From Rhizobium sp. TH135 (GTDB lineage: Bacteria > Pseudomonadota > Alphaproteobacteria > Rhizobiales > Rhizobiaceae): DNA of 64,000 nt. Below are positions 49,760-57,777 of this stretch, piece by piece. The stretch covers positions 124,001 to 188,000 of the forward strand of contig NZ_PKRP01000001.1 of the NCBI RefSeq assembly GCF_002855515.1. The letters run 5' to 3'. A model generated the notes under the pieces. It searched no databases, had not been told where the DNA came from, and saw only the letters and a list, made by a program, of their open reading frames with translations. A program made the position numbers and the translations under genes. Position 1 is the first letter of the stretch. Every line of letters begins with the position of its first letter.

Positions 49760-50638
49760 TCAGTTGATCGATGCGACCTCTGCGGCCATCGCGCGGTCAT
49801 CCTGTGAGGCCTTGGGCAGAAGCGCGTCGCAGGCGCCCTTGTGGCCGGTCAATTCCTTGACGAGATCATAGGTCGCGTCGGCGAGCGTCCAACGGACGGC
49901 AGCCTGCAACCCTTCCTGCGACTTGCTGCCGATCTTGATGTCGAACAACTCGTCGGAGAAGAAGCGGAAGACCGAGGCGAAGACTTCGCGACCGACCGCC
50001 TGCTTCGAGTAGGAATTGGCCTTGATGATGCGGGTGGACTTGGTGTCCGTGACCCGAATGTCGACGGCGGCTGTCACGGCAAAACGTCGGGCACCGGCAC
50101 CGGCACCTCCGACGCTTGCCTCGAGGCCACCGGAATAGGTGTTGAAGTCAAGCTGGGTGATCACCCCGTCGATGACATAATCGGAGCCACGCAGCGCACC
50201 CTTGACCAGCGGCCGGAAGGGCAGGCTCTCATCACCGACCACAACATTGCCGCCATCCCCCAGGATCTGCTCGCGAGCACGGGCGATTTCCCATTCGGAG
50301 ACGGCCGTATTCGACCGATTGACCTGCTTCACGCCCGCCTTTTGCAGCAGGGACACCATCATGCCAGCACTGTCGCGCGGCAGATAATTGCCGGTTTCTT
50401 CAGACGAATAACGCCCGGTTTGATCCGTGATCACATGCACGGCAAAGATGCGCGGGTAGCGCTGAACTTCGGGTGTCTTGCTCAGGCATTCCAGAGCTGC
50501 ATCAACAGGCGTGCGTGTCGCAATCGGAACAGGGCCGAGGAAGGGTTCCTTAGGGGCTTGCTCCGCCGTTTGCGATTGGCAGGCGGCGAGAAAAATGACC
50601 GGAGCAAGCAGGAGGCCACGCAATATACCAGAAGTCAT
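49760..50638 (-). CDS. hfaB: CsgG/HfaB-family outer-membrane secretion lipoprotein
   Basis: A 292-residue lipoprotein (signal to Cys20 in FLAAC). The CsgG fold is visible: RIFAVHVITDQTGRYSSEETGNYLPRDSAGMMVSLLQKAG near the N-terminus, SDYVIDGVITQLDFNTYSGG with the pore-loop region, the AAVDIRVTDTKSTRIIKANSY strand and the C-terminal helices VFRFFSDELFDIKIGSKSQEGLQAAVRWTL. CsgG forms the ring pore that exports curli subunits; HfaB does this for the holdfast anchor of Caulobacter. It lies 10 bp behind the HfaA-like gene. No CsgE or CsgF is present. Confidence 0.85.
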   Translation of the reverse strand: MTSGILRGLLLAPVIFLAACQSQTAEQAPKEPFLGPVPIATRTPVDAALECLSKTPEVQRYPRIFAVHVITDQTGRYSSEETGNYLPRDSAGMMVSLLQKAGVKQVNRSNTAVSEWEIARAREQILGDGGNVVVGDESLPFRPLVKGALRGSDYVIDGVITQLDFNTYSGGLEASVGGAGAGARRFAVTAAVDIRVTDTKSTRIIKANSYSKQAVGREVFASVFRFFSDELFDIKIGSKSQEGLQAAVRWTLADATYDLVKELTGHKGACDALLPKASQDDRAMAAEVASIN

Positions 50639-50648
50639 GCCTCGGGCC

Positions 50649-50987
50649 TCAATTGTTCAGGATCGAATTGTTGCTGTCGGTCTGGGTGATCGTCTGGGCA
50701 CCCGAATTGGTCTGGGTGGTCGTGATCGTGTTGCCGGATCCGTTGATCGTGATGGTCGTGGCATTCCCGGTCTGCTGCGTGCCCAATCCCGCCGCCGAAC
50801 CGACGCCCGTCGCGGGGAATTTGCCCTGCAATTCCAGACGTGTGCGTTCGAGATTGAGAAGCACCTGGCGCTCATTGGCCGAGCGGAACTGATAGGGCCG
50901 ATCTTCGCCAAGACCATTCGCGACCGCCGCCGAGGGCGCCATGACAGCGAGCACCAACAGCCCCGCAGAATATCTAGAAACGTCCAT
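50649..50987 (-). CDS. hfaA: HfaA-like short curlin-type subunit
   Basis: A 112-residue exported protein (signal peptide to about residue 23, AVANG). The first mature part YQFRSANERQVLLNLERTRLEL is like HfaA; the last 45 residues are a curlin-like tract rich in Q, N, T, G and S (QQTGNATTITINGSGN, then TQTNSGAQTITQTDSNN). It has no Cys and no charges in that tract, as amyloid subunits do. GGGGGG is before the ATG. First gene of a two-gene unit with the CsgG-like gene. Confidence 0.75.
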   Translation of the reverse strand: MDVSRYSAGLLVLAVMAPSAAVANGLGEDRPYQFRSANERQVLLNLERTRLELQGKFPATGVGSAAGLGTQQTGNATTITINGSGNTITTTQTNSGAQTITQTDSNNSILNN

Positions 50988-51237
50988 AACACCCCCCTAA
51001 AATTCTACAGCTTACTCGTCTCTTCCTACCTGTAATCTAAGGATGGGATAGCACTAAAGACAGCCGGAGACAGCGAAAATCTACTGCAAAAATAGATAAG
51101 CCGAGAAGACACCGGAAACTCGTTGCCGAAAGACAACACCATTTAACAACAACGCACAAACCACTGATGACACTGGACAATAGAAGATTGATGACGCAAC
51201 AATCATACGACGTCGAGCGAACGTATAGGTCAACTCC

Positions 51238-51654
51238 ATGCGTATATTTATATCTATGACACTTGCTATCGGTCTAGCTGCCTCTCCGGTGGCGGCTGAG
51301 ACGAATACGGTGGAAAATTTTGTCCGCGCCATGGTAGAGTTGAAGCGCGCTGGGGCGACTTGTGAGCCCTATGTGCAAGGCTCTCCGCTCAGTCTCATGG
51401 CTGGCATCGACGCCTATTTTGTTGCGTTGAAACAGCCCGTCCCCAACACCGTGGACGAGCGGACCAGGGACAGCATCGGCAAATTGATCAAGCAGCATGC
51501 GGCTTACATTTGCTCGACGAAACTTGTGAAAGCGCAGAACAATTACATCAGCGCTGCTGCGAGTTACATGGACAACAAGCCGGCGGAATGGCCGGATGCG
51601 CCCTGGATCGACTTCCCGCAGTGGTGTCAGGACCCGGCCTGCGCGGAATACTGA
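51238..51654 (+). CDS. Exported protein with four cysteines, in the fibre locus
   Basis: A 138-residue protein with a signal peptide (to about residue 20, SPVAAE). The mature part is helical with Cys42, Cys92, Cys130 and Cys135, likely two disulphides; it ends in a Trp/Pro-rich tail (WPDAPWIDFPQWCQDPACAEY). It is transcribed opposite to the fibre genes and lies between hfaA and the HfaD-like gene. No family recognised; position suggests a periplasmic helper of the fibre system, unproven. Confidence 0.68.
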   Translation: MRIFISMTLAIGLAASPVAAETNTVENFVRAMVELKRAGATCEPYVQGSPLSLMAGIDAYFVALKQPVPNTVDERTRDSIGKLIKQHAAYICSTKLVKAQNNYISAAASYMDNKPAEWPDAPWIDFPQWCQDPACAEY

Positions 51655-51711
51655 CATCCGGTTTCCGAGCTGCACTCAGACGAAGTTCGCGCCTCGTCAG
51701 AAGGAAATTCC

Positions 51712-52776
51712 TCAGCGTTCGATTACGACCGCATTGCCGGTCTGGGACACGGCGCCCGCGTTGGCACCCTGGACGGACTGGCTGTATTCTGCCGACTGCA
51801 ACACGTCGACGGTCTGCGAAGACCCATCTTCAGCCGTCGCTTTCAGGACAATCATGTTGACGTAGTTGTTGGAGTTCTGCGTGATGTTCGGCGAGGTGAT
51901 CTGCGTAAGCCCCTGAAGGGTCATCACCTCGACGCGGTTGTTCACAACCTGCTCGCCATTGCTGGAGGTCTGCTCCAGATAGCCGATGTTCTCCGCCTCG
52001 ATGTAATTGGCGATATTGGTGCCGTTCTGGCTGATCGAACCCCAGCGCGCGCCATCTTCAAGCCGCACGACATTGTTGATGATCTGATCGCCGGAAAAGT
52101 CGCGGATCACTTCATCGACGTTGCGCGCAACGATAATATTGCCGAGATTGCTCCCCTCCTGAACGATCGCACCCGCACCACCCGCACCCGTGACATCAAT
52201 CTGGTTGTCGACACGCTGCTCCGCCTGCTTGGTGAAATTCTGGGAGCTGAGCGCCACCGACTGCTCGGAATAGACCAGGTTCATGGTGTTGGTGCCCGAC
52301 TGGCGCAGCGTGCCCGGAAGGTCCGGCAGAACAAGGCTGTTCTTCGCGTGCTGCACCGAACCATCGGCGAAATACTGCTCGACATTGCCGATATCACCGC
52401 CGACGACGGCGTTGCCGGTGTTGGACGCCTCCTGTTCGAGCGTTTCAAGCGCGGAGACCGCATTCAGGATGATGTCATTGACAGAGAGCTGCCTGCCCTC
52501 GAAATCCTGGCGGACGCTATCGAGCGGCCGATCGCTGACATCGATGATGTTACCAGCATTGGCCGCAGTCTGGCGCGCCGACTTCGCAAGGGACACATTG
52601 GTCCAGCCGAGCGCCTGACTTGCATCCTGCTGCCCCTCAAAGCTCTGGACGATCTGCGCCGACCGAACAAGTTCCTGCGCCGGAATGAGCGCAAGCGGCT
52701 CAGCGACCGGAAGACCGGGCCAGGCAACCAGAACCGCGCATGTCACGACTAAGGAAACTCGATATCTCCGGGACAT
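51712..52776 (-). CDS. hfaD: HfaD-like repeat adhesin
   Basis: A 354-residue exported protein (signal to about residue 25) with a repeated beta-strand pattern. Six Q-x-[A/G/S]-x-N-x-x-N units are seen: QTAANAGN, QEASNTGN, QSGTNTMN, QEGSNLGN, QNGTNIAN, QNSNNYVN. They alternate with F-x-G/D-type turns such as DFEGRQLSVNDII and DFSGDQIINNVV, and the protein ends SQTGNAVVIER. This is the curlin/HfaD-type stacked-rung pattern of amyloid-like adhesins. ATG 52776 is taken as start; a GTG four codons up is possible. By context it is the client of the CsgG-like pore. Confidence 0.75.
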   Translation of the reverse strand: MSRRYRVSLVVTCAVLVAWPGLPVAEPLALIPAQELVRSAQIVQSFEGQQDASQALGWTNVSLAKSARQTAANAGNIIDVSDRPLDSVRQDFEGRQLSVNDIILNAVSALETLEQEASNTGNAVVGGDIGNVEQYFADGSVQHAKNSLVLPDLPGTLRQSGTNTMNLVYSEQSVALSSQNFTKQAEQRVDNQIDVTGAGGAGAIVQEGSNLGNIIVARNVDEVIRDFSGDQIINNVVRLEDGARWGSISQNGTNIANYIEAENIGYLEQTSSNGEQVVNNRVEVMTLQGLTQITSPNITQNSNNYVNMIVLKATAEDGSSQTVDVLQSAEYSQSVQGANAGAVSQTGNAVVIER

Positions 52777-52839
52777 CGGAACAAACACCTTGGCTCATCA
52801 TGAGCCAGGCCCCCACACATTCATCGACAGAAATGAAAA

Positions 52840-52865
52840 GGCCAGGCTGACGGATCAGCCTGGCC
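52840..52865 (-). terminator. Rho-independent terminator behind the twelve-repeat gene
   Basis: GGCCAGGCTGA, a 4-base loop, TCAGCCTGGCC, then TTTT on the minus strand. An 11-bp perfect stem 10 bp after the stop, so the twelve-repeat gene is transcribed apart from the HfaD-like gene. Confidence 0.88.
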
Positions 52866-52875
52866 AAAGCTTCAA

Positions 52876-53856
52876 TCAGTTCATGTCGCCGATCGAGTTG
52901 GCAACGTTGGTTGCGCTCTGAACGACGGCCTCGACGGTGCCATTGGCATCGATCAGGTTCGAAGCATTCTGAGAGACGAACGCGACCTGGCTGATGCCAA
53001 GGCCAACATCGATTTCATCGATCGAAACGAGGTTGGTTGCGTTGACTGCCGTCTGCTCAAAGTCCCAGATATTCGAATTGCTGCCGACGGAATCGGCCAC
53101 GTTGCGAGCCTTCTGATCGACCGCGGAGAACTGCGCGAGTGTGTAGTTCACGCTCTTGACCGAGACGCTGTTGATGACGTTCGTCGCATCCTGCGTGGAC
53201 GGAACGACCTCGCCGTCGACCGTAGCATTCCCATCAATCCACTTCTTGAACTGGATCGTGTTCAGGGCATCCTGATCTCCGACAGCAACCTGTTCGATCT
53301 TGTCGAGGTCCGGCGCATCCAGATCGACCGTAATCAGATTGGACGCATTCACAGCAGTCTGACTCACATCGAGGACGGTGTCCGCGACAGCGATGTCGTT
53401 CGTGGCGTACTGGTCAACAAATGCACCCTGCTTGATCCAGTCGAGCACGTTGGCTGTTCCCGGAATATCGTCGTCGCCGAGCGATACGGAGTTGGCAACG
53501 TTGGTCGCGCTCTGGGTCACATCGTCAATAGTGACGTAGTCACGCTCCATTTCCCACTTGTGCTTTTTCCAATTCCAGTCCCAGCTATAGCCCGATTCAA
53601 TGCTGTTCTCAGCATCCTGCTCGACGGCGGATTTCTGCAGGATCGTATCCAGGTTGCCAGCGCTCGCCTTGGAAACAAGGTTTGCCGCGTTTACGGCTTC
53701 CTGCACCCCTACTTTCACCTTGGTCACATCTTCGATGTCATTCAGGGCTTCCTGAATGCCGATCGCAAACTGGCTGATATCGGCATCCACGTCCGTCGCA
53801 AACGCCGACGTCGACGCCATCAGCGCCAATACTGAAGCTGCGATTACACTTTTCAT
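52876..53856 (-). CDS. Exported twelve-repeat curlin-like protein
   Basis: A 326-residue protein with a signal peptide (MKSVIAASVLALMASTSAFA). It carries twelve copies of Q-x-A-x-N at residues 35, 52, 80, 115, 149, 166, 195, 222, 248, 268, 296 and 313. Spacing is irregular but mostly either 17-20 or 26-35 residues, so short and long gaps recur. Copies fall into two kinds, e.g. SQTAVNASNLI / VQSATNVANSV and DQDALNTIQF / DQKARNVADSV. One insert (about residues 90-108) is Trp/Lys-rich. No Cys. The layout fits a stacked beta-solenoid or amyloid fibre. GGAGAGAGACC precedes the ATG; it has its own terminator. Probably exported by the HfaB-like pore. Confidence 0.78.
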   Translation of the reverse strand: MKSVIAASVLALMASTSAFATDVDADISQFAIGIQEALNDIEDVTKVKVGVQEAVNAANLVSKASAGNLDTILQKSAVEQDAENSIESGYSWDWNWKKHKWEMERDYVTIDDVTQSATNVANSVSLGDDDIPGTANVLDWIKQGAFVDQYATNDIAVADTVLDVSQTAVNASNLITVDLDAPDLDKIEQVAVGDQDALNTIQFKKWIDGNATVDGEVVPSTQDATNVINSVSVKSVNYTLAQFSAVDQKARNVADSVGSNSNIWDFEQTAVNATNLVSIDEIDVGLGISQVAFVSQNASNLIDANGTVEAVVQSATNVANSIGDMN

Positions 53857-54592
53857 GGTCTCTCTCCTCTGCTTCACCTATCGCCCCGATTTCAATCCGT
53901 ACTCAACCACCTCAGACAGAGAATAGGTCGTACCAGACAACAGAGCTTCTCACTCCCCCAGAGTCATTCTGGAGAATATCAAATAAATTCAACGATATTT
54001 TTCAGCCATACAGAAGATACGCGGCTTTTCTGATTACAGAACAAGAACGTTCGCACTCGCAGCAATGACGCAGCCACTCAATACAGCACTCAAACATAGC
54101 GATATTTCAATGGTTGCGTAACAATACTAGTGGCGAAACAGACTTCTGCCAATAAGATACAAGCACGCCTTCTTTGCTTGCGTCAATACTGTATTAACAC
54201 AAAATTAATGACGATAAATGACACTGGATTGCCGGTTTATTTCGTTTTCGAATCAGCCGCTTGAATATCTTTAGTTGCACGAGCGACTGAATGTTCCGCC
54301 AAAACACCCCAAAATTAGCGTGGTTTCGGCGTGCAAAACGAGCGCGTCGAGGGCTGCGCGACCATGCGTGCGGCGCGGTCGCGAAGTATCCGTCTGTTCT
54401 ACTGTCGGTCCTGCACAAGGCTCCGCCGCAGACGCCATCGCCCACCCCCGGCATTCGACGTAGGCTTGTCTGAGCCTTTGCCGTGGACATCCGCGGACGG
54501 GTTACGCTAGGCTTAGGGATGGTTTAAGGGGACGATCGGCGGGACCGAATTCCGGCCGCCTTGAGTCGACCAATTAGAGGGACGAAAAAGAC
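53857..54592. other. 736-bp spacer upstream of the repeat-protein gene
   Basis: No gene I can support. The left two thirds is AT-rich (about 53930-54240), as expected for the control region of a strongly regulated surface gene on the minus strand; the right third is GC-rich and leads into hupE. An open frame at 54194-54490 (minus) has no ribosome site and odd composition. Confidence 0.5.
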
Positions 54593-55165
54593 ATGTTGAA
54601 GCGCCTTTCATTCACCGCCGCCCTGCTCTCGCTGGCAGCAAGCCCAGCCTTCGCGCACCTGGATCCGGCAGCCCATGGTTCGCTGATGGCAGGCATCTCG
54701 CACCCGCTCTTCGGCGCCGATCACATCCTGGCAATGGTCGCTGTGGGTGTCTGGGCAAGCCAGATCGGTGGTCGCGCACTCTGGGCCGTCCCAGCTGCCT
54801 TCGTCTCGATGATGGCCGTTGGCTTCGGCCTCGCCGTCGCGGGCGTCGGCCTGCCCTTCGTGGAGCCGGCGATCCTCGCTTCGGTCATCGGCCTTGGCCT
54901 GCTGGTCGCCGCCGCCGTGCGCCTGCCGGTCGCAGCGTCCGCCGCAGTCGTCGGCATCTTCGCCCTCTTCCATGGCCATGCCCATGGTGGTGAACTGGGT
55001 GCCGCGGGCGCTCTGTCCTTCGGCCTCGGCTTCCTGATCGCAACCGCCGCCCTGCATGGCGCCGGCGTCGCGCTCGGCCTTGGCGTCACCCGCTTCGGCC
55101 CGGCTGTCGCCCGGATCCTCGGCCTCGCAACCGCTATCGGCGGTGCCGCGATCGCCTTCGGCTGA
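54593..55165 (+). CDS. HupE/UreJ family membrane protein
   Basis: A 190-residue protein with a cleavable signal (to AFAH) and six hydrophobic helices. The HupE/UreJ pattern HPLFGADHILAMVAVGVWA (residues 37-55) and the later FALFHGHAHGGEL (His-rich, helix 4) are present; these histidines are thought to bind nickel or cobalt. No hydrogenase or urease genes are near. A ribosome-like GAGGGACG lies before the ATG. A strong terminator follows. Confidence 0.9.
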   Translation: MLKRLSFTAALLSLAASPAFAHLDPAAHGSLMAGISHPLFGADHILAMVAVGVWASQIGGRALWAVPAAFVSMMAVGFGLAVAGVGLPFVEPAILASVIGLGLLVAAAVRLPVAASAAVVGIFALFHGHAHGGELGAAGALSFGLGFLIATAALHGAGVALGLGVTRFGPAVARILGLATAIGGAAIAFG

Positions 55166-55410: not shown

Positions 55411-56184
55411 ATGCGTTGGCTCAAGACGATCGCAGTGGCTGCAACCCTGCAGACTCTCATTTTCCCGCAGGCCTTCGCTGGCGAGAACCTCGACCAGATC
55501 AAGGCGGCAGGCGTCATCAAGATTGGCACCGAGGGCACCTATGCGCCCTTCACCTTCCACAATGCCGACAACAAGCTTGTTGGTTTTGATGTCGAAATCG
55601 GCGAAGCCGTCGCCGCCAAGCTTGGCGTCAAGGCTGAGTTCGTCGAAGGCAAGTGGGATGGCCTGATCGCCGGCCTCGACGCCAACCGCTATGACGCCGT
55701 CATCAACCAGGTCGGCATCACCGAGGCCCGCAAAGAAAAGTACGACTTCTCCGATCCCTATATCGTTTCCAAGGCCGTACTGGTCGTCAAGAACGACAAC
55801 GACGAGATCAAGAGCTTCGAGGATCTTGATGGCAAGACGTCTGCCCAGTCGCTGTCGAGCAATTTCGGCAAGATCGCCGAAGCGGCCGGCGCCGAACTCG
55901 TCGGCACCGATGGTTTCGACCAGTCGATCCAGCTTGTGTTGACCGGTCGCGCCGACGCCACGATCAATGACAGCCTCTCCTTCCTCGACTTCAAGAAGCA
56001 GAAGCCCGACGCGCCGGTGAAGATCGCCGCCGAAAAGGCTGAAGCAGATGCCTCCGGCATCATCGTTCGGAAGGGTGATCCGGAACTGGTCGCCGCGATC
56101 AACCAGGCGCTGGCAGACATCAAGGCCGACGGCACCTATCAGAAGATCGCCGACACCTATTTCGGCCAGGACGTCTCGAAGTAA
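55411..56184 (+). CDS. Amino-acid ABC transporter substrate-binding protein (cystine-type)
   Basis: A 257-residue periplasmic protein: signal to about residue 23 (QAFAG), then a family-3 solute-binding fold: IKIGTEGTYAPFTFHN, LVGFDVEIGEAVAAKLG, WDGLIAGLDANRYDAVINQVGIT and YDFSDPYI. The order SBP-permease-ATPase and the sequence resemble the TcyJ/FliY cystine set; the ligand is inferred. First gene of a three-gene operon. Confidence 0.92.
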   Translation: MRWLKTIAVAATLQTLIFPQAFAGENLDQIKAAGVIKIGTEGTYAPFTFHNADNKLVGFDVEIGEAVAAKLGVKAEFVEGKWDGLIAGLDANRYDAVINQVGITEARKEKYDFSDPYIVSKAVLVVKNDNDEIKSFEDLDGKTSAQSLSSNFGKIAEAAGAELVGTDGFDQSIQLVLTGRADATINDSLSFLDFKKQKPDAPVKIAAEKAEADASGIIVRKGDPELVAAINQALADIKADGTYQKIADTYFGQDVSK

Positions 56185-56278
56185 TCTCTACCCTCCCCTC
56201 GAGGGGGAGGTGGGAGAACGCCACCGGTCGCAGCGGCTTTGCCTCTCGGTCGGGGCAAAAGCATCTTTGTTGTCCAAT

Positions 56279-56307
56279 GCGGCAGGGGCGCTTCTCGTCC
56301 CTGCCGC
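56279..56307 (+). other. mRNA hairpin between binding protein and permease genes
   Basis: GCGGCAGGG pairs with CCCTGCCGC (9 bp, 11-base loop) in the 160-bp spacer; the first part of the spacer (56190-56215) also folds (CCCTCCCCTCGAGGGGGAGG). Stems here often stabilise the upstream message so that more binding protein than permease is made. Confidence 0.5.
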
Positions 56308-56344
56308 AAAATCGTTTCGGTTCCCGTTCTCAAGGATACCCCCA

Positions 56345-57025
56345 ATGCCGCACTGGCTCGACCTGATGCTGACCTCGCTGCCGACCCTCTTATGGGCCGG
56401 TGTGAAGTTCACCATTCCCCTGACGCTGCTGTCGTTTGCATTCGGCATCACCCTCGGCCTGATTACAGCAGTGACGCGGCTGTTTGCGGCAAAGCCTCTG
56501 GTGCTGGTCGCGCGCTTCTATGTGTGGGTGATCCGTGGCACGCCGCTTCTGGTGCAGCTCTTCGTCATCTTCTACGGCCTGCCAAGCGTCGGCATCCTGC
56601 TCGATGCCTTTTCCGCCGCCCTGATCGGCTTCACGCTGAATGTCGGTGCCTATACCTCAGAGATCATCCGCGCCGCCATCTCTTCCGTGCCCAAGGGACA
56701 GTGGGAGGCGGCCTATTCGACCGGCATGACCTGGGGTCAGGCCATGCGCCGCACCATCCTGCCGCAGGCCGGCCGCGTCGCCGTGCCGCCGCTGTCCAAC
56801 ACCTTCATCTCGCTGGTGAAGGATACCTCGCTTGCCGCGGCCATCACCGTGCCGGAGCTCTTCCAGTCGGCCCAGCGCATCGTCGCCACGACCTACGAGC
56901 CGCTGATCCTCTATATCGAGGCGGCCCTCATCTACCTGGCGCTCAGCTCCGTTCTGTCGGCGCTGCAGGCGCGGCTCGAAACCCGCTTCGCCCGTTATGG
57001 CGGGATGCTGGAGGCTAACCGATGA
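56345..57025 (+). CDS. Amino-acid ABC transporter permease
   Basis: A 226-residue HisM-type inner-membrane permease with five to six helices. The EAA loop that contacts the ATPase is EAAYSTGMTWGQAMRRTILPQAGRVAVPPL. YVWVIRGTPLLVQLFVIFYGLP is the signature before it. Its TGA overlaps the ATG of the ATPase gene. Confidence 0.93.
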   Translation: MPHWLDLMLTSLPTLLWAGVKFTIPLTLLSFAFGITLGLITAVTRLFAAKPLVLVARFYVWVIRGTPLLVQLFVIFYGLPSVGILLDAFSAALIGFTLNVGAYTSEIIRAAISSVPKGQWEAAYSTGMTWGQAMRRTILPQAGRVAVPPLSNTFISLVKDTSLAAAITVPELFQSAQRIVATTYEPLILYIEAALIYLALSSVLSALQARLETRFARYGGMLEANR

Positions 57026-57777
57026 TCACGCTCTCCCATATCGTCAAGCGCTTCGGCGACGCGACCATCCTCAACGATATCTCGCTCTCGATCCCCGAGG
57101 GCAGCGTGACCGCGCTCGTCGGCCCCTCCGGCGGCGGCAAGAGCACGCTGTTGCGCTCCATCAATCTTCTCGAGCAGCCGACATCCGGCAGGGTGCAGAT
57201 CGGCGCGCACGGGATCGACTTCACGCCGGGGCGCAAGGTTGCCTTTGCGGAACTCCAGAAGATCCGTTGCGAGACCGGCATGGTCTTCCAGAACTTCCAG
57301 CTTTTCCCGCATCGGACCGCGATCGAGAATGTCATGGAGGGCCTGATCACGGTGCAGAAATGGCCGCGCGACAAGGCCCATGCCCGCGCCACAGAGCTTC
57401 TGCAAAAGGTCGGCATGGCCCACAAGGCTGATGCCTGGCCGTCGGAACTGTCAGGCGGCCAGCAGCAGCGCGTGGCGATCGCACGTGCCCTGGCGCCTTC
57501 CCCGAAAGTCCTGCTTTGCGACGAGCCGACCTCAGCGCTTGATCCGGAACTGGCCGGCGAGGTGGTCGACGTGTTGAGCCAGCTGGCGGCCGAGGGCACG
57601 ACCATGGTCATCGCCACCCACGACCTTCGCCTTGCCTCGAAGATCGCAAGCCAGGTGGTGTTTCTGGAGGCGGGCGTCGTGGTCGAAACCGGGACCGGCG
57701 AGCAGATCTTCCGCAATCCTGAGCGCGAGCGCACGAAGCGCTTCGTCTCCTCGATCAGCGCCGCCCAGGCCCTCTGA
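57022..57777 (+). CDS. Amino-acid ABC transporter ATPase
   Basis: A 251-residue ATPase: Walker A GPSGGGKSTLL, signature LSGGQQQRVAIARAL, Walker B VLLCDEPTSALDPEL and switch HDL (ATHDLRLA). Translation is coupled to the permease through an ATGA overlap. Confidence 0.94.
   Translation: MITLSHIVKRFGDATILNDISLSIPEGSVTALVGPSGGGKSTLLRSINLLEQPTSGRVQIGAHGIDFTPGRKVAFAELQKIRCETGMVFQNFQLFPHRTAIENVMEGLITVQKWPRDKAHARATELLQKVGMAHKADAWPSELSGGQQQRVAIARALAPSPKVLLCDEPTSALDPELAGEVVDVLSQLAAEGTTMVIATHDLRLASKIASQVVFLEAGVVVETGTGEQIFRNPERERTKRFVSSISAAQAL

Follow-up and report, generated by a model that had tools for sequence, protein, structure and literature searches.

Organization of the locus

The stretch of DNA analysed here, referred to as the window, comprises 64,000 nucleotides of Rhizobium sp. 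TH135 (contig NZ_PKRP01000001.1, positions 124,001 to 188,000). Five genes lying within positions 49760–53856 of the window are considered; they encode a pore lipoprotein of the CsgG/HfaB family, a small exported HfaA-like protein and three further exported proteins, for which the names RepA, RepB and Cys4 were coined in this analysis. The reading frames were checked and stand at the coordinates of the original prediction, which had been made from the DNA letters alone. Signal peptides of the locus proteins were predicted by eye. The five genes are one module, well supported as a unit, and a curli-like surface-fibre function is proposed for it below.

The pore gene (49760..50638, minus strand) encodes an outer-membrane lipoprotein of 292 amino acids (aa) with the lipobox LAAC. 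As predicted, it belongs to the CsgG/HfaB family, matching Pfam CsgG (PF03783) with 53.9 bits at a cut-off of 20.8 (E 1.9e-14); a sequence search of the PDB matches it to the solved E. coli CsgG (E 5.1e-8). Against the NCBIfam HfaB equivalog (NF037935) it scores 161.5 bits, below the cut-off of 300. The TH135 genome contains no other match to this pore at E 0.001. The gene for the small HfaA-like protein (50649..50987, minus strand, 112 aa), described originally as a short Q/N/G-rich subunit, indeed ends 10 bp before the pore gene. Its N-terminal motif is of the NG[LF]..E/D....QFR type, and in the alignment the conserved motif ends in [QD]FR, with a Q/N segment at the C-terminus.

Two exported repeat proteins had also been expected on the minus strand, and the frames of RepB (51712..52776) and RepA (52876..53856, 326 aa) were confirmed. 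Cys4 (51238..51654, plus strand) is an exported protein of 138 aa with four cysteines, invariant across the alignment. It is present opposite the other genes, as originally noted, and proves to be a conserved member of the locus rather than a bystander. None of the four proteins other than the pore reaches a Pfam cut-off, and none matches an NCBIfam model (HfaA included) up to E 1; their homologues give scattered weak Pfam matches only.

Conservation and gene order of the module

A scan for pores closely related to that of the window, run on genome contigs, yielded 16 loci. All five families are found in each of these (16/16), a figure that describes conservation among near pore relatives and is not a census. 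Seven loci are rhizobial (L006–L010, L013, L021), three come from Devosia (L011, L012, L014) and six from Roseobacteraceae (L015–L020), so that the label 'rhizobial' of the original prediction is too narrow. Two Loktanella plasmids likewise carry all five genes. The nearest relatives of the window locus belong to an Allorhizobium metagenome-assembled genome (HfaB 99% identical), Rhizobium rosettiformans and Peteryoungia.

Three gene orders occur among the near-relative loci. In rhizobia cys4 is located on the opposite strand between hfaA and repB, in Devosia it precedes hfaA, and in Loktanella it shares four bases with the end of hfaB, repA-repB being in the opposite orientation. RepB was detected in 11 of 63 genomes of the same genus and Cys4 in the identical 11. 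A chance placement of Cys4 beside the other genes, considered as an explanation, is ruled out by this shared occurrence together with the Loktanella overlap. In a family sample, some pore match is present in 24 of 297 genomes; the only close one is that of TH135 itself, the next being 37% identical. Among 386 genomes of the class, with at most 10 candidates scored per genome, Cys4 was found in TH135 alone.

A LuxR-type gene is situated near repA in five of the six roseobacterial loci (cluster c7), and the GerE domain was confirmed in the three that were scanned. These genes recall CsgD. In R. rosettiformans W3 (L008:3455-4767) repA lies in two overlapping frames, owing to a changed frame or to an error in assembly.

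Repeats and predicted fold of RepA and RepB

RepA and RepB are paralogues, reaching 99.4% in profile comparison over 314 columns. Each is built from Q-x-[AGS]-x-N arms. The pattern Q-x-[AGS]-x-N-x2-N occurs six times in each protein, far above the shuffled means (0.04 for RepA and 0.07 for RepB), and six occurrences were reached in none of 2000 shuffles of either sequence. E. coli CsgA and CsgB, in the same test, contain five curlin motifs each and zero copies of this pattern. The curlin kernel is given in PMC10192328 as N-$-Psi1-$-Psi2-$-Q-X-G-X-X-N; the step from Q to N in the RepA and RepB arms is one residue shorter, and the curlin spacing Q-x-G-x2-N was found in 0 of 33 RepA/RepB homologues. 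Two kinds of arm, labelled a and b by us, alternate as (ab)6 in the window RepA and less regularly in RepB.

Homologues of RepA range from 225 to 765 aa and those of RepB from 344 to 416 aa (frames as opened, some starts being unverified). The same contrast, between a variable CsgA and a constant CsgB, is reported in PMC3521004. The window RepA differs from that of its nearest relative, L006, by one block of 99 residues, which contains two arm pairs, and three gaps of 2–3 residues.

Structure prediction with AlphaFold2 covered RepB and Cys4. RepB is predicted to be all-beta (predicted local distance difference test, pLDDT, 81.2; predicted template modelling score 0.80; 17 sequences) and to form a beta-solenoid. 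The third Foldseek match of this model is Pontibacter CsgA (E 0.16). CsgA is among the best VIA-align matches, both that of Pontibacter (Z 12.1, root-mean-square deviation (rmsd) 8.7, 166 residues aligned) and, as a fibril, that of E. coli (Z 8.4, rmsd 8.3, 111 aligned). The high rmsd to CsgA may come from a handedness error of AlphaFold2 caused by a thin alignment; according to PMC10192328, AlphaFold2 models of CsgA built from thin alignments often had the opposite hand. PDB sequence searches with the RepA, RepB and Cys4 alignments returned nothing meaningful, the best match being methyl-coenzyme M reductase (E 0.016).

Position of the pore within the CsgG/HfaB family

In a tree of 93 rows the module pores form one clade of 19 rows with a support of 100/100. 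The Hfa rows form a separate clade (22 rows, 100/99), and the module pores lie outside it. The deepest split of the tree parts 26 rows (100/100), namely 12 of curli and 14 unlabelled ones from Rhizobiaceae, from the HfaB side, where the module clade is placed, away from curli CsgG. The tool warned of long branches meeting, which leaves the exact sister of the module pore unsure. For the pore group labelled AFD, whose exported partner is a different one, the tree requires two changes.

Sister pores of the module are those of L135, L136 and L137, where the other four module genes are absent; an exported protein resembling, by eye, a rhizobial outer-membrane barrel occurs nearby in L136 and L137. 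Another alphaproteobacterial HfaB-family group is represented by L087–L097, L099 and L100. Many of these loci combine the pore with an exported protein of about 350 aa, whose mature start resembles AFD.VDW.W, and small exported proteins and regulator-like genes are located close by (both seen by eye). Genome G310 harbours five pore copies. In the Rhizobiaceae HfaB-family pore L098:4440-5861 (minus strand), the C-terminal region scores 26.7 bits, just under the OmpA cut-off of 27.2, and possibly ties this pore to peptidoglycan. The HfaB-family loci L085 and L086, which carry a long HfaA-like protein, a protein of about 400 aa and one frame of some 1030 aa that continues beyond the retrieved sequence, are candidates for yet another export locus.

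Twenty other HfaB-family regions were searched with the module profiles. Weak HfaA-profile matches were obtained in four (best E 1.4e-7, L100), weak RepA matches in four (best 1.7e-4, L094) and weak RepB matches in three (best 0.024). Cys4 was detected in 0 of the 20 (E <= 0.05).

The small HfaA-like protein and Cys4

The C-terminal segment of the small protein reaches 94.6% in a hhalign comparison with 12 true HfaA sequences, the similarity being confined to 29 columns. A CsgF-like identity was considered as well, since the QFR motif after the signal peptide resembled E. coli CsgF, and was rejected on profile comparison: 3.7% with one CsgF and 10.8% with 23 CsgF rows, the latter aligned elsewhere. 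Pectate_lyase_5 was discarded for its score below cut-off.

Cys4 is predicted to be all-helical (pLDDT 82.6). The best Foldseek match of the model has E 2.5, and the best VIA match is a helical-bundle protein (Z 8.5, rmsd 3.2, 105 aligned), a score that, as the tool itself notes, helical bundles can reach by chance. Comparison with a single E. coli CsgC in hhalign gave 0.12%.

Intergenic hairpins and the upstream region

A GC-rich hairpin with a stem of 11 pairs, followed by TTTTC, separates repA from repB (52840..52865, minus strand). It is proposed to be an attenuator or mRNA stabiliser. Terminator-like matches in the region as a whole number six at 4.8 expected, near chance. Stems of ten or more pairs with no more than one mismatch occur in 16 of 17 repA-repB intervals, while 0.25 were expected from dinucleotide shuffles; the remaining interval, that of L018, folds with a longer stem including G-U pairs. 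Since the stem sequences differ between groups, it is the structure that is kept, not the sequence. T-rich tails are found mainly in rhizobial and Devosia loci; the hairpin may therefore act as a partial terminator in these and stabilise the mRNA in the others.

A second hairpin stands just before the repB start (52807-52791, minus strand), and folds of other rhizobial loci show comparable second stems; it could control RepB translation. The 736 bp upstream of repA, up to the HupE/UreJ gene at 54593 (53857..54592), are possibly regulatory. They contain one promoter-like match (54152-54124, minus strand), the whole scan giving five such matches at 2.4 expected.

Neighbouring genes

Eight frames beside the window locus were scanned with Pfam: epimerase, SelO, GST, HupE/UreJ and an amino-acid ATP-binding cassette (ABC) transporter were recognised, and one frame was unmatched. 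An amino-acid ABC transporter adjoins the module both in the window (55411-57777) and in Loktanella (L017:3866-6073); this neighbourhood is probably a coincidence, because the identity is just 34–44%.

Comparison with curli and the Hfa holdfast anchor

The module shares with curli (csgBAC and csgDEFG of E. coli) a pore of the CsgG family and a pair of exported Q/N repeat subunits that are paralogues, of which one varies in its number of repeats and the other is near-constant. The beta-solenoid subunit, predicted here for RepB, is a further common trait. The differences concern the arms (Q-x-[AG]-x-N versus the curlin Q-x-G-x2-N), the pore, which falls in another clade than curli CsgG (100/100 each), and Cys4, which is predicted to be helical, whereas PMC4838910 reports CsgC and CsgH to be beta-strand proteins, CsgH having seven strands. 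The lack of CsgE and CsgF was noted from the start, and searches of the TH135 genome for CsgE, CsgF and Curlin gave 0 matches, the E. coli control being positive in each; other assembly helpers are therefore needed. According to PMC3521004, CsgE and CsgF are also missing from roughly half of the alphaproteobacterial genera with curli.

Alphaproteobacterial curli with CsgH (PMC3521004 and PMC4838910) come from the same class and resemble the module in a reduced helper set and in a small partner with cysteine that is encoded close to the subunits; the module subunits differ in not being curlin, either by Pfam or by spacing. By its pore clade, repeat and helpers the module is not curli.

With the Hfa anchor of Caulobacter (hfaA, hfaB, hfaD) the module has in common a pore of the HfaB side that immediately follows a small HfaA-like protein, the resemblance of the latter to HfaA lying in its C-terminal segment. 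RepA, RepB and Cys4 are additions of the module. By its pore clade and its score under the HfaB equivalog cut-off, the module is not Hfa. The 'amyloid-like anchor or fibre' proposed in the original prediction agrees with the CsgG/HfaB pore, the exported repeat proteins and the predicted solenoid of RepB; an identity with the Hfa holdfast anchor is not supported. By analogy, the module would work most like curli.

Proposed mechanism and alternative explanations

A self-contained curli-like surface-fibre system, with RepA as the major subunit, RepB as the nucleator and Cys4 as a helper, is our preferred explanation, with a probability of about 0.68. We infer the transport route, fibre or amyloid formation, adhesion and the roles of RepA, RepB, Cys4, the HfaA-like protein and the hairpin from the comparisons given above. 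RepA and RepB would be synthesised as precursors with signal peptides. In the periplasm Cys4 could help to prevent the subunits from folding, either keeping them soluble or gating the pore. The HfaB-type outer-membrane pore would pass RepA and RepB unfolded, by analogy with CsgG. Outside the cell the subunits could fold into Q/N-laddered beta-solenoids stacking into fibres. RepA, the variable major subunit, would extend the fibre, and RepB, of near-constant length, could be the minor subunit that seeds, nucleates or anchors it. The repA-repB hairpin may keep repA mRNA in excess, and the HfaA-like protein could be a surface anchor associated with the pore.

Several results weigh against a curli-like fibre. 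The locus is patchy, as its 11 of 63 same-genus genomes demonstrate. None of the 33 RepA/RepB homologues matches Pfam Curlin (PF07012), profile comparisons of RepA with CsgA and of RepB with CsgA and CsgB (single E. coli sequences) all remain below 1%, and three of 16 RepA homologues match LRR_5 weakly (best E 0.0088). Unbroken ab alternation, by our labels, is found in just seven of the 16 RepA homologues, the others showing exceptions. Foldseek gives no significant match for the RepB model (best E 0.017), and in VIA-align the unrelated solenoids SufB/SufD score as high as CsgA (Z 12.3). The structural matches thus support a solenoid for RepB and not specifically curli; many beta-solenoid proteins do not polymerise, as stated in PMC10192328. 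For Cys4, neither family nor fold gives a clue to function.

That RepB matches non-fibrous solenoids equally well would suit a non-amyloid surface coat or adhesin, in which RepA and RepB are single folded solenoids carried by the pore and do not polymerise. The fast divergence of RepA (69% identity to L006, at 99% for HfaB) is also as in exposed adhesins. Regular repeats, changes in number by whole units and a length-stable paralogue, however, resemble the polymerising CsgA/CsgB of PMC3521004, and such an adhesin is quite improbable. An Hfa-type anchor, whose pore would display RepA, RepB and the HfaA-like protein and tether exopolysaccharide to the cell instead of forming a free fibre, is unlikely too. 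The HfaB side of the tree and the HfaA-like segment of the small protein speak for it, as do genes for polysaccharide export and for a tyrosine autokinase, which follow the LuxR-type gene beside repA in Loktanella. It is opposed by the placement of the pore outside the Hfa clade and under the equivalog cut-off, and by the eight frames beside the window locus, among which no polysaccharide export or glycosyltransferase gene was found. No HfaD-like profile match was obtained either (RepA 3.7%, RepB 7.9%, against eight proteins presumed to be HfaD from their position and motif).

A true csg operon diverged beyond recognition would also possess a CsgG-family pore and two paralogous repeat subunits, and its missing CsgE and CsgF would have parallels in the alphaproteobacterial genera mentioned above. 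The split of the pore from curli CsgG at 100/100, the genome negative for Curlin, CsgE and CsgF and the lack of curlin spacing in the homologues render this extremely improbable.

Returning to the curli-like fibre system, the module might represent a further class of CsgG-family-dependent amyloid beside curli and Hfa, with its own repeat grammar of two alternating Q-x-[AG]-x-N arms and with Cys4 as a helical, cysteine-bearing periplasmic gatekeeper in place of CsgE, CsgF and CsgC. This proposal is tentative, at slightly less than even odds. A search of titles and abstract openings in the open PMC literature (subscription papers and preprints being outside its scope) found no description of the locus among the papers listed.

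Curli are the main model for safe bacterial amyloid production. If the proposal is true, the same kind of pore operates with different subunits and a different helper, which would show which parts of the curli logic are essential. The questions it poses are testable: whether RepA polymerises, whether RepB seeds RepA and whether Cys4 holds RepA back. The module would then be a plausible attachment factor for some rhizobia, Devosia and marine roseobacters.

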